Shown here piece by piece: positions 2,362-9,499 of a stretch of DNA of 23,269 nt (position 1 is its first letter; every line of letters starts with the position of its first letter). The DNA lies in the IMG/VR virus record IMGVR_UViG_3300020057_000155, positions 1 through 23,269 of that record, one strand, 5' to 3'. Origin of the DNA: a virus. The position numbers were made by a program, and so were the translations under genes. A model generated the notes under the pieces. The model was given only the letters and a program-made list of their open reading frames with translations, did no database searches and was not told the origin of the DNA.

Positions 2362-2790
2362 TCAGGCGGATTCGGTGTCGGTGAGCAGATGCGCACGGAA
2401 CTGCTTCCATGCCGCGCTCTCTTCCGCGTGCGAGGCCCTGCGTCGCTCAATGCGCCCGAGGTTTTCGCGAACCCATGCGACGGCTTCGCGCACCGCGTCG
2501 ATCGCGTCGCCCCGGTTGATGCCGGTGAATGTCTCGGCGCTCGGGCCGCCGCGTTGTGTGGCACCAGCGGCCAGCAGAACCCTGATGGCGGCGCGCTCGG
2601 CCTCCAGTGCGAAGGAACGCGTCCCGTAGGCGCAGTAGTGGCGCCAGGTCGTCGCGCCGTGCCGGTGAGTCGCCATGCGCTTTTGCGGGTCGCTTGTCAT
2701 GCCGAGCTTCACGTCGCCATTTGGACGGCCGATGAGGTAGACCCACGCGCAGCCCTTAAGTGGCCGGGGAAACTGGCGGCGGCGCTTCAT
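2362..2790 (-). CDS. GIY-YIG / T5orf172-type nuclease-domain protein
   Basis: A 142-residue protein. Residues about 15-45 (WVYLIGRPNGDVKLGMTSDP, then QKRMATHRHG) match the T5orf172/GIY-YIG core: a hydrophobic strand replacing GIY, a V-K-L-G-M-T segment replacing YIG, and the conserved D-P-x-K-R and H. A following helix (AERAAIRVLLAAG) with the acidic AE fits the core fold. The C-terminal half is a charged helical extension (AWVRENLGRIERRRASHAEE). In this family the role is DNA nicking or binding; many phage copies are fused to KilA-N or Bro domains, but here the domain stands alone. Its ATG overlaps the stop of the Cro-like gene by one base (TGATG), so it is the first gene co-expressed with Cro. 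Confidence 0.75.
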   Translation of the reverse strand: MKRRRQFPRPLKGCAWVYLIGRPNGDVKLGMTSDPQKRMATHRHGATTWRHYCAYGTRSFALEAERAAIRVLLAAGATQRGGPSAETFTGINRGDAIDAVREAVAWVRENLGRIERRRASHAEESAAWKQFRAHLLTDTESA

Positions 2791-2990
2791 CAGGCGGCCT
2801 CTTGTTGTTGACCGGGATGCGGATGCGGCACTCGGTTGGCGATCCGCCAGAGCGCCGCTTGCACCCGATCAGCGATGCGCGGCGACAGTTCGTCCGGCCA
2901 CTTGTCTACCGCCTGGTAACTGACGCCAATCGCTTCGGCGGCAGCGGCTACCGTTCCCCCGAGGGACTGAATGGCTTCGGCTTTGAGCAT
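2790..2990 (-). CDS. cro: Cro-like transcriptional regulator (leaderless start)
   Basis: A 66-residue protein starting MLKAEAIQSLGGTVAAAAEA. Residues 8-40 (LGGTVAAAAEAIGVSYQAVD, then KWPDELSPRI) form a helix-turn-helix of the lambda Cro/YdaS kind: a GG at the first helix, A-A-x-x-I-G-V-S as the turn, K-W-P at the end of the recognition helix. It diverges from the CI-like gene at 3060, the classic cro/cI arrangement. An in-frame ATG exists at 3005, but it lies upstream of the predicted transcription start (~2989) and inside an operator. The ATG at 2990 falls almost exactly on that start and has no Shine-Dalgarno, so translation is probably leaderless. It should compete with CI at the operators at 3000 and 3023 and commit the phage to lytic growth. 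Confidence 0.8.
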   Translation of the reverse strand: MLKAEAIQSLGGTVAAAAEAIGVSYQAVDKWPDELSPRIADRVQAALWRIANRVPHPHPGQQQEAA

Positions 2991-2995
2991 GGAGA

Positions 2996-3033
2996 ATTGA
3001 ACCATAGTTTACGGCTGCGCGCAACTATAGTTC
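2996..3033 (-). promoter_or_regulatory. Left operator/promoter block (P-left, O-left)
   Basis: Two operators, 3000-3009 (AACTATGGTT on the minus strand) and 3023-3032 (AACTATAGTT, a perfect palindrome), are 23 bp apart. On the minus strand a -35 TTGCGC (3024-3019) and a -10 TTCAAT (3001-2996) are spaced by exactly 17 bp, placing the start near 2989, at the cro ATG. The outer operator fills the spacer and touches the -10; the inner one abuts the -35. The whole block recurs in inverted orientation at 3535-3572 with the same spacings, which is strong internal evidence that these are real sites. Confidence 0.8.
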
Positions 3034-3042
3034 CAGTATGCT
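3015..3042 (+). promoter_or_regulatory. Possible weak promoter for the CI-like gene
   Basis: CTGCGC (3015-3020), a 16-bp spacer and TATGCT (3037-3042) read toward the repressor ATG at 3060. The match to consensus is poor, as expected for a regulated maintenance promoter. The inner operator (3023-3032) lies in its spacer, so CI or Cro bound there would control it. An alternative -10 (TATAGT, 3026-3031) lacks a good -35. Confidence 0.3.
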
Positions 3043-3059
3043 GCGCTACCGTCCCAGGA

Positions 3060-3494
3060 ATGCCCCTCGCCTACAAGGATCGGCTCGCGCTCGCAATGAG
3101 GGAAGCAATGGTCGGCGAGCACCAGGTGGCGAAGCACCTCAAGATAACCTATACGGCGGTCAAGAAGGTACTCGACGGGAAAACGAGCGCCCTGACCGCC
3201 TCGAACAATGCCCGAGCCGCGCAACTTACCAGCGTACGCTCCGACTGGCTGGCGACCGGTGAAGGCGACATGAAGGCCGGCGCCAGTCCCGGCGAGATGC
3301 CGTTCCGAGAATTGAACGTCTTTGAGGCGCAGCTCATCACGTTCTTCCGCCTGCTCACGCTCGACCAGCAGCACGAGGTCGTCGCCGCCTTGAACAAGAT
3401 GGTCGGCGGCGGAGCCTCAGCGGCAAACCCGTTCCCAGGCAAGGCCCGCAAGGTGCGGGGCACCTCAGTCCTCGGCGAATTGGGCAAGCCGTAA
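3060..3494 (+). CDS. cI: CI-like phage repressor without a protease domain
   Basis: A 144-residue protein starting MPLAYKDRLALAMREAMVGE. Residues 5-60 carry an XRE-type helix-turn-helix (HQVAKHLKITYTAVKKVLDG, then TSALTASNNARAAQ and SDWLATGEGDM), the usual N-terminal half of lambdoid CI proteins including the W-L-A-T-G-E/G signature that ends the DNA-binding domain. The second half (FRELNVFEAQLITFFRLLTL, then DQQHEVVAALNKMVG) is a short helical segment probably used for oligomerisation. The S24/LexA-type Ser-Lys peptidase domain of full-length CI is absent. It lies exactly between two mirrored operator blocks, which is the main argument for its role. AGGA lies directly against the ATG, too close for an ideal ribosome site. 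Confidence 0.8.
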   Translation: MPLAYKDRLALAMREAMVGEHQVAKHLKITYTAVKKVLDGKTSALTASNNARAAQLTSVRSDWLATGEGDMKAGASPGEMPFRELNVFEAQLITFFRLLTLDQQHEVVAALNKMVGGGASAANPFPGKARKVRGTSVLGELGKP

Positions 3495-3512
3495 GTAAAA
3501 CGGCGCCTGTTA

Positions 3513-3572
3513 CAAAATAGTTGCGCCCATTGATGAACTATAGTTGCGCCGTTTGTTGAACTATGGTTCAAT
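3513..3572 (+). promoter_or_regulatory. Right operator/promoter block (P-right, O-right)
   Basis: Three operator-like sites start at 3513 (CAAAATAGTT, degenerate), 3536 (AACTATAGTT, perfect palindrome) and 3559 (AACTATGGTT), each 23 bp apart. A -35 TTGCGC (3544-3549) and a -10 TTCAAT (3567-3572), spaced 17 bp, point right, giving a start near 3579 and a ~38-base leader before the ATG at 3617. Segments 3535-3549 and 3559-3572 are exact reverse complements of 3019-3033 and 2996-3009. The spacing is close to that between lambda operators. CI should block this promoter and hence the whole recombination operon. Confidence 0.82.
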
Positions 3573-3616: not shown

Positions 3617-3781
3617 ATGAACCAAGTCAAAGTCGCCGCCGAACTCCAGCGAGTCACAGCCGAGATCGCGAAGTCCCGCGCTGCGATGAGCGCCGCGAAG
3701 GTCGGCTCGCGCAAGTGGCTCGCCGCCGAAGGCGAGCTGAACTTCTGGCAGGGCAAGCAAGCGTATCTGGCGGCCGCATGA
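3617..3781 (+). CDS. Small protein of unknown function, first gene of the rightward operon
   Basis: A 54-residue protein starting MNQVKVAAELQRVTAEIAKS. The start was chosen for the strong AGGGGAG site (3604-3610), six bases before the ATG; the frame is open to 3563, but that ATG lies inside an operator. The protein is a basic helical hairpin-like peptide (RAAMSAAKVGSRKWLAAEGE, then LNFWQGKQAYLAAA). No family is recognised. Being first behind the repressor-controlled promoter, it is a candidate early effector or regulator. Its stop overlaps the next ATG (ATGA, 3778-3781). Confidence 0.7.
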   Translation: MNQVKVAAELQRVTAEIAKSRAAMSAAKVGSRKWLAAEGELNFWQGKQAYLAAA

Positions 3782-7980: not shown

Positions 7981-8295
7981 ATGAATGACCCCCTACGCGA
8001 TGCCCTGGCCGAGCTTGTGCCGGGGCAAACAGTTTACGTGCCAGCGGAGGTTGTCATCCTTTGGCACGATGCCGGGCGGGTGCTTTGTCGCGTCCACGAC
8101 TACAAATTCTCGGTCGCGGCCGATCAGGTTTTGCGCGCCGCCCCCACAGGAGCAGCGCCATTTGCGACTATCAACCATGAGCTACTGAGGCAGATCGAGG
8201 ATTCAGCGGATGAGTGGGGGCCGTCTGGAAAACTGGGCAACGACGCCGAGTATGCTCGCGCGGGCAAAGCCGAAGCGGCGGACCGCGAGCCGTAA
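7981..8295 (+). CDS. Phage protein of unknown function
   Basis: A 104-residue protein starting MNDPLRDALAELVPGQTVYV, three bases after the previous stop, with a weak GAAGGGGTGAGTC leader. The first 55 residues are beta-rich (QTVYVPAEVVILWHDAGRVL, then CRVHDYKFSVAADQVLRAAP), like a small SH3-type barrel. The rest is a hydrophilic tail (DEWGPSGKLGNDAEYARAGK). The local base composition is slightly less GC-rich than that of its neighbours. No family is recognised. Its stop overlaps the ATG of the excisionase-like gene. Confidence 0.6.
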   Translation: MNDPLRDALAELVPGQTVYVPAEVVILWHDAGRVLCRVHDYKFSVAADQVLRAAPTGAAPFATINHELLRQIEDSADEWGPSGKLGNDAEYARAGKAEAADREP

Positions 8296-8690
8296 TGCTG
8301 ACCGCCGCCGCAGTCGCCGCCGAGCTCGGGATCAGTCCTCGCCAGGTCTACACGCTCCACGCGGGCGGGCGGCTGCGCGGGTATCGGATCGGCCGTTCGG
8401 TACGATTCGCCGGGGTCGACGTCCAGGAGTTCAAAGCATCATGCCGATCAGCCGCGTCCGCGACAGTGAGGGCCGCGCTCGTTTCGAGTTTGAATTCAGC
8501 CGTCGTCTTGGCGGTCGGCGGCAACGAACTCGAAAGCTGCTTCCTGCGGCATGGAGTCGCGCCCGAGCGGATGCCTTTGACCGGCAAGAATGTGCCCGCC
8601 TCTACGCGCAGGCGACCGGCATCGAAGCCCAGCAGTGGACGATCGACCAGGCTGTCACTCGTTACCTCGACGAGCGAGCGGTCGAGCTGA
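8295..8690 (+). CDS. xis: Excisionase-like HTH protein, overprinted by int
   Basis: A 131-residue frame. The first ~50 residues (MLTAAAVAAELGISPRQVYT, LHAGGRLRGYRIGRSVRFAG, VDVQEFKASC) are a clear MerR/excisionase-type HTH module (helix-turn-helix, then the wing Y-R-I-G-R-S-V-R-F and a D-V-x-E-F end). This fits a directionality factor for the adjacent integrase. The frame does not stop there: 81 further residues overlap int by 250 bases and look like a by-product of the int frame (low complexity, Ser/Arg rich). The functional part therefore probably ends where int begins. The start overlaps the upstream stop (TAATG), supporting translation from 8295. Confidence 0.7.
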   Translation: MLTAAAVAAELGISPRQVYTLHAGGRLRGYRIGRSVRFAGVDVQEFKASCRSAASATVRAALVSSLNSAVVLAVGGNELESCFLRHGVAPERMPLTGKNVPASTRRRPASKPSSGRSTRLSLVTSTSERSS

Positions 8691-9499
8691 AGACGCACGG
8701 CGGCATCGTGCTCGAGCTGCTGGCCCTGGCGCCCTACTTCGCCGGCCAGCCAATCGAAGCCCTGCCCGAAGTGGCGGCGAGATTCGCGCGCGAGCACCGC
8801 GCGACCCTTGCGCCGGCCACGATCATGAACCGGCTGCGCTACCTTGCCGCGGCGTGCCGGTGGGGCTGGAAGCGTCACGGCATGGGCCTGCACGACCCCG
8901 CGGCCCGGGTTCAGATGCCGGCCGTCAGCAACGAGCGACAGGTCTACATCGACCGCCGGCAGATGTTGACGCTGGCCCGCGCATGCGTCCACAGGCCAAC
9001 CAGGGCGGCCATCAGGGTCGCGTACTACTCCGGGATGCGCTTGGGCGAGATAGAGCGCGCAAGGCGGGTTCCCGGGGCCTTCCTGCTAGACGACACGAAG
9101 AACGGGGAGCCGCGGGTCGTGCCGATGCATCCGAAGATCAGGACAGCCGCCACGGTGCCGCTCGGGAGCCGGTACACGCGGCACTATCACTTCCGCATCG
9201 CCTGCGCCTCGGTCGGACTGCACGATCTGCACTTCCACGACCTCCGGCACTCGGCGGCCAGCGCCATGATCAACGCGGGCGTGGACCTCTACACGGTCGG
9301 CGCAGTGCTGGGGCACAAGTCTGCGGCGAGCACTCGGCGGTACGCGCACCTGGCCACGAACGCGCTCGAGGTGGCCGTCGGCAAGATCGGCAGGCGGCCA
9401 ACATCTTCCCCGTTTGCTGCGGTGCACAAGGTGGAGGCGCGGGCCGGAGTCGAACCGACCTACTCGGATTTGCAATCGAGGCAGCGGCGCGTAGCGTAG
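8441..9499 (+). CDS. int: Tyrosine site-specific integrase
   Basis: A 352-residue phage integrase. An N-terminal arm-binding-type basic region (MPISRVRDSEGRARFEFEFS) is followed by a core-binding helical domain (~65-150) and the catalytic domain. The active-site set is complete: Arg200 (SGMRLGEIE), Lys220 in the beta-hairpin (DDTKNGEPRVVPM), His266 and Arg269 (HFHDLRHSAA), His292 (LGHKS) and the nucleophile Tyr301 (STRRYAHL). ATG 8441 has AGGAG at 8425-8429, rather far (11 bases). The last ~20 residues (ARAGVEPTYSDLQ) are encoded by tRNA-Cys-derived sequence, a known feature of integrases whose gene end carries the att core. It ends convergently 16 bases from the lysis lipoprotein gene. Confidence 0.93.
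   Translation: MPISRVRDSEGRARFEFEFSRRLGGRRQRTRKLLPAAWSRARADAFDRQECARLYAQATGIEAQQWTIDQAVTRYLDERAVELKTHGGIVLELLALAPYFAGQPIEALPEVAARFAREHRATLAPATIMNRLRYLAAACRWGWKRHGMGLHDPAARVQMPAVSNERQVYIDRRQMLTLARACVHRPTRAAIRVAYYSGMRLGEIERARRVPGAFLLDDTKNGEPRVVPMHPKIRTAATVPLGSRYTRHYHFRIACASVGLHDLHFHDLRHSAASAMINAGVDLYTVGAVLGHKSAASTRRYAHLATNALEVAVGKIGRRPTSSPFAAVHKVEARAGVEPTYSDLQSRQRRVA
9432..9477 (-). other. Presumed attP core: 3' half of tRNA-Cys(GCA)
   Basis: Read on the minus strand, these 46 bases run GATTGCAAATCC, a variable part, a T-arm (GTCGG stem, TTCGACT loop, CCGGC stem), then CGCGCCTCCA. From memory this matches the 3' half of bacterial tRNA-Cys, from the anticodon loop (TT-GCA-AA) to the encoded CCA. 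The D-arm and the 5' acceptor strand are not present on the other side, so this is a fragment and not a tRNA gene. It lies inside the int 3' end, where such att cores are expected. Integration would restore a complete host tRNA-Cys. Confidence 0.82.

Follow-up and report, generated by a model that had tools for sequence, protein, structure and literature searches.

A putative lambda-like immunity region with mirror-image operator pairs flanking a short CI-like repressor gene in a viral contig

Operators, promoters and genes of the window

The viral DNA analyzed here, a stretch of 23,269 bp from an IMG/VR virus record referred to as the window, very probably contains a phage immunity region in which one CI-like repressor would close both early promoters and a Cro-like protein would read the same operators. 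Four sites of the form AACYATRGTT (3000, 3023, 3536 and 3559; none expected by chance) make up two mirror blocks on either side of a gene for a CI-like protein of 144 aa (Table 1), and scanning all 23,269 bp for AACTATAGTT with at most one mismatch returned these four positions only, with none in 100 shuffles. The blocks contain exact inverted repeats of 15 nt (3019-3033/3535-3549) and 14 nt (2996-3009/3559-3572). Aligned over 38 bp (2996-3033 and 3535-3572), one block matches the reverse complement of the other at 30 positions, and all eight mismatches fall into the spacer between the operators. Inverted 14-nt matches less than 1 kb apart are by themselves not uncommon given the GC-rich composition of the window (0.83 for each Markov-1 sequence), and it is the operator-level test that is informative. 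A degenerate third 23-bp repeat of the right block (OL) is present at 3517-3539 and carries the half-operator ATAGTT.

The initial annotation had described these positions and inverted repeats, all of which were exact on re-examination; its outer left site was meant in the leftward reading, as AACCATAGTT on the plus strand corresponds to AACTATGGTT when read leftward. It had also placed an outward TTGCGC-17-TTCAAT promoter in each block, and a search for TTGCGC-N15..19-TTCAAT found these two promoters and no further match in the window (none expected). The operator spacing of exactly 23 bp, on which it had likewise remarked, is accounted for by the promoter geometry (6+17), because the 3' GTT of each operator runs into a promoter hexamer; in relatives, operator spacings of 23/24 bp correspond to promoter spacings of 17/18 bp. 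The -35 hexamer TTGCGC and the -10 hexamer TTCAAT of the window are weak matches to the sigma-70 consensus.

Table 1. Positions of operators, promoters and genes in the window
Feature	Position	Strand	Remarks
OR1 (AACCATAGTT)	3000..3009		overlaps PR -10; conserved in relatives
OR2 (AACTATAGTT, perfect palindrome)	3023..3032		overlaps PR -35; at expected PRM -35 position
Position of missing OR3	3056..3065		in relatives AACYATGGTT including cI ATG, 33 bp from OR2
OL2 (AACTATAGTT)	3536..3545		overlaps PL -35
OL1 (AACTATGGTT)	3559..3568		overlaps PL -10
Early promoter PR (TTGCGC-17-TTCAAT)	2996..3024	-	towards cro; -10 ends few nt before cro ATG
Early promoter PL (TTGCGC-17-TTCAAT)	3544..3572	+	away from cI, into recombination operon
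Candidate PRM -10 (TACCGT)	3047..3052	+	7 nt before cI ATG; assigned by position
cro-like gene	2790..2991	-	ATG 2991, in-frame ATG upstream at 3005; P22_Cro/YdaS-like HTH; recognition helix VSYQAVDKW
cI-like repressor gene	3060..3494	+	144 aa; N-terminal HTH and short helical C-terminus
First small ORF of rightward operon	3617..3781	+	54 aa
RecE/exonuclease VIII-like gene	further right, to 6246		rightward operon
Integrase gene	8210-9499		further right of PL

According to the mechanism that we propose, a dimer of the CI-like repressor would bind the two OR and the two OL operators. In each block one site would cover the -10 element of the outward early promoter and its partner the -35 element, so that the cro operon and the recombination/integration operon would be closed by one protein. 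From OR2, CI may in addition activate its own gene. In the lytic state the Cro-like protein, which has a similar recognition helix, would read the same operators. The predicted left transcription start (~2989-2991) falls on the cro ATG, from which a leaderless cro mRNA would result, and a leaderless cI mRNA is possible; a hexamer starting with TA is found 6-7 nt ahead of the cI ATG in many relatives.

Both regulators are recognizable as phage helix-turn-helix proteins. The window Cro matches PF14549 with an E-value of 1.9e-6 and 28.0 bits, which is below the gathering cut-off of 30.2, and it is 57-73% identical to the Cro proteins of relatives, which start at the downstream ATG. The window CI matches phage repressors weakly (phrog_2328, E 7e-9) and has no Pfam match and no S24 peptidase domain, while longer relatives have PF00717. 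Its structure model (mean pLDDT 78, pTM 0.51) comprises a confident five-helix HTH, helices 87-98 and 101-115 and a disordered tail. Foldseek matches of this model are XRE/434-type HTH proteins with modest E-values, including 2cro and P22 c2, and no match argues for an S24 domain; among them are the short phage repressors 9iaq and 9sf2, which by their titles were solved with antirepressor or AimX partners. CI and Cro share a recognition-helix motif with the family form S/T-Y-Q-A-V-x-K, for CI SYQAVKK in the family, from which TYTAVKK in the window departs. At the end of the contig a GC-rich 17-nt inverted repeat (arms 23025-23041/23253-23269) reaches the last base exactly; it may have arisen in assembly or be structural.

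Recurrence of both blocks in related loci

When DNA was scanned for one operator pair, loci with homologous CI and Cro genes emerged; a search with a Cro alignment, which is independent of the operator DNA, yielded 80 viral loci, and a CI alignment retrieved 28 viral loci and 9 in genomes. The set of related loci was recovered mostly via the Cro or CI protein and in some cases via the operator pattern. The window CI as single-sequence query found nothing in the viral and genome collections. The genome loci stem from Castellaniella, Paenalcaligenes, Comamonas, Achromobacter, Polaromonas and Ramlibacter, all of which we take to be Burkholderiales, and the host of the temperate phage is probably a betaproteobacterium. 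A survey of 399 genomes, from the order to which a Comamonas host belongs, gave three strong matches to Cro, the seed genome among them, and a representative Cro of the window's family had no match among 50,697 catalogued phage records. Among the titles listed by literature searches with the operator sequence, all papers were on unrelated subjects. Two kinds of candidates were rejected: HK639, which has a full-length CI and a different intergenic sequence, and AT-rich matches to the operator pattern (e.g., L033, L045, L051), which have no CI/Cro match and are probably due to chance.

The upstream region is highly regular across 72 unique loci, with OR1 ~10 nt from the cro ATG (9-11 in most) and OR2 usually 23 or 24 bp beyond OR1. 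Beyond cI, an operator pair with 22-24 bp spacing is present in 64 of the 76 loci of an enlarged set, comprising loci with at least 600 bp of sequence beyond cI, and in none of the shuffles; by the first method a second pair was detected in 57/72 loci. At the operator ends of these OL blocks the -10 position holds TTCAAT, TTTAAT or TTAAAT in 61/64 cases, and 35/64 have TTGACA or TTGACT at the -35 position.

Within a genome the two blocks agree. The central base of OR1 and OL1 is the same in 52 of 56 loci (35 A/A, 17 G/G, 3 G/A, 1 G/C; Fisher 1.7e-11 for the A/G table), which alone is weak after phylogenetic correction because it reflects only ~5 changes on the tree. Four loci with altered CI/Cro recognition helices (L010, L291, L292 and L293) have different operators, with OR and OL altered alike; in L293 the 14-bp OR1 GTTAGCCGGCTTAA is repeated at OL without mismatch, and over 12 bp OL2 is the exact reverse complement of OR2. 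When six operator types were compared with each other (6x6), OR1 differed from the downstream region of its own genome by 0-1 mismatches and from those of others by 2-4. As both blocks differ alike in these four loci, one regulator probably reads both OR and OL. At the level of the DNA sequence it is established where the sites lie and how they are arranged, that they recur in relatives, and that OR and OL agree within each genome. The initial annotation had proposed a comparison of the blocks for co-varying changes, the outcome of which is favourable, as OR equals OL within a genome across operator types. Its further claim that one repressor closes both early promoters gains from this agreement and from the recurrence of the blocks, and the repression itself is deduced from the arrangement of the sites.

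Two other explanations of the blocks were weighed against this reading. That the right block is a duplicated copy of OR and answers to a different regulator, one for the rightward operon, so that no common protein acts on the blocks, is conceivable insofar as the blocks could stem from an inverted duplication; we consider it very unlikely, given that OL equals OR within each genome across several operator sequences and that no other regulator gene is located between the blocks in the window. Still less weight, hardly any, is given to the idea that the inverted blocks are an element of recombination, packaging or replication instead of operators. Inverted repeats flanking a gene can indeed be recombination sites, but here they coincide with promoter hexamers and adjoin cro and cI in relatives, and the repeat sequence varies along with the recognition helices.

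Several loci deviate from the common plan. In L094/L095, L115 and L127, OR and OL-like sites are found less than ~165 bp from the cro start with no cI in between, while the operators are retained. The arrangement resembles that of natural cI deletions, perhaps of lytic derivatives against which the CI of relatives would still be effective. In L078 and L080 cI is shortened to ~50 codons, and L078 has an OL-like block directly behind it. Residues 88-230 of the L039 CI are 69% identical to Bordetella phage vB_BaM-IFTN9, a similarity that is confined to the S24 part and suggests an exchange of DNA-binding and cleavage domains among repressors.

The third operator and the S24 domain of CI

In 59 of the 72 unique loci a third operator, OR3, is present; usually the cI ATG lies inside it (AACYATGGTT), and the protein mostly starts with MV. 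In the window this operator is gone, though the cI ATG keeps the same offset from OR2. The initial annotation, the operator/promoter reading of which is itself supported, had mentioned neither the OR3 on the cI start codon of relatives and its absence from the window nor the lack of an S24 domain in CI. OR3 is missing in 11/26 loci with an S24-less CI versus 1/50 loci with an S24-containing CI (Fisher 1.3e-5, uncorrected for phylogeny), with some of the S24-less CIs being only distant homologues. On a poorly resolved tree at least 12 changes of CI type and at least 8 changes of OR3 were counted, which leaves too few supported independent contrasts for a phylogenetic correction.

The association fits an upkeep of OR3 that lapsed after loss of the cleavable domain. 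For lambda it was shown that mutation of OR3 or OL3 relieves the repression of PRM and raises CI expression (PMC3708714). Plausibly, an OR3-mediated limit on CI synthesis is needed less once CI can no longer be cleaved, a hypothesis that was formed after seeing the data. As the window has no OR3 at the cI start and its CI no S24 domain, this CI is probably neither self-limited at PRM nor cleaved through RecA, and induction may need an antirepressor-like partner; as no LexA box was found in the window, no SOS-controlled antirepressor was identified. Tentatively, and with rather less than even confidence, the region might be seen as a stripped-down, SOS-independent lambda-like switch of ~0.55 kb, in which loss of the RecA-cleavable domain left OR3 unmaintained and resulted in symmetric two-plus-two operators.

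Block distance and comparison with known switches

The distance between OR1 and OL1 ranges from 502 to 3871 bp in 53 loci, and with 559 bp the window is among the shortest. The cI-to-OL interval amounts to 44 bp in the window and to up to 3 kb in relatives; the window is compact because extra genes are absent and cI is short. The extra sequence between cI and OL, seen e.g. in L146, L161 and L063, is possibly a site for lysogenic cargo genes by analogy with rexAB of lambda.

Whether OR and OL are joined by a loop over the repressor gene, which the initial annotation had considered possible, is evenly balanced in our judgement with the alternative that the blocks are real and CI acts locally at each of them, the 0.5-kb spacing having no regulatory role. 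No signal of helical phasing was found among the OR1-OL1 distances (n=53 loci), so nothing in the block distances speaks for looping, and their spread of 0.5-3.9 kb in relatives is in line with local action. Lambda CI forms octamers via its C-terminal domain, and the short window CI is without a C-terminal domain of the lambda type. The relief of lambda PRM repression by OR3 or OL3 mutation (PMC3708714) points in the same direction, as the window is without OR3. Against purely local action, most relatives keep OL near OR beyond cI, which is compatible with a loop, and the C-terminal helices of the CI model (residues 87-115) could oligomerise.

Few CI/Cro circuits are well mapped, and the family enlarges their number by a switch that is spread through environmental and prophage contigs. 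Dozens of its members differ naturally in how many operators they have, how far apart the blocks are and which type of CI they encode, and some have apparently lost cI; such variants could serve to probe the roles of autorepression at OR3, of the distance between OL and OR and of the cleavability of CI.

In lambda, as in the window, an operator cluster lies on either side of cI, the two early promoters point away from cI, and CI and Cro share operators; lambda furthermore has rexAB beside cI and a cleavable CI. The analogy to lambda OL/OR drawn in the initial annotation is sound. Its description as a compact analogue with both arms diverging from cI needs amending, as the promoters of lambda also face outward and N15 is compact as well. 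The repressors of 434 and P22 resemble the window CI in the N-terminal HTH fold (434 repressor 2r63, E 0.0015), and the resemblance of the window Cro to P22_Cro (PF14549) stays just under the gathering cut-off; they differ in the C-terminal part of CI, with no S24 domain in the window, and presumably in operator sequence. The two sets of three operators in lambda are ~2.3 kb apart (PMC5880393, PMC3708714), whereas the window has two plus two sites 0.5 kb apart, no OR3 and no S24 domain. The CI of TP901-1 from Lactococcus is composed of an HTH and a separate oligomerisation domain and acts on OR, OL and OD operators in a switch that spans less than 1 kb (PMC7250872), and thereby resembles the window as a short HTH CI with several operators in a compact switch. 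The likeness lies in the described architecture; TP901-1 differs in its MOR protein, which forms complexes with CI and acts as antirepressor, and no mirror pairs flanking cI were described (PMC7250872). A compact layout is already known from N15 (PMC4488713), where the repressor gene cB is the only gene that the immB operators flank (OL 34056-34094 with two sites, OR 34729-34793) and cro is divergent; phiKO2 has an immunity region like N15 immB, and for the N15 relative PY54 leaderless cI and cro mRNAs were shown (PMC4488713). N15 differs in its operator sequence, its CB of 202 aa that belongs to the LexA family, its three OR sites and its OL, which controls repA, and its CI/Cro proteins have no significant sequence similarity to those of the window. 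Among the traits of lambda/N15-type regions, a third OR operator at the cI promoter/start and a LexA/S24 self-cleavage domain in CI are absent from the window, while divergent cI and cro genes with operators between them overlapping PR and a second operator cluster beyond cI over an outward early promoter are present. The layout plan is known from lambda and N15; here it occurs in a family without a Cro match among the catalogued phage records searched and in an unusually reduced form.
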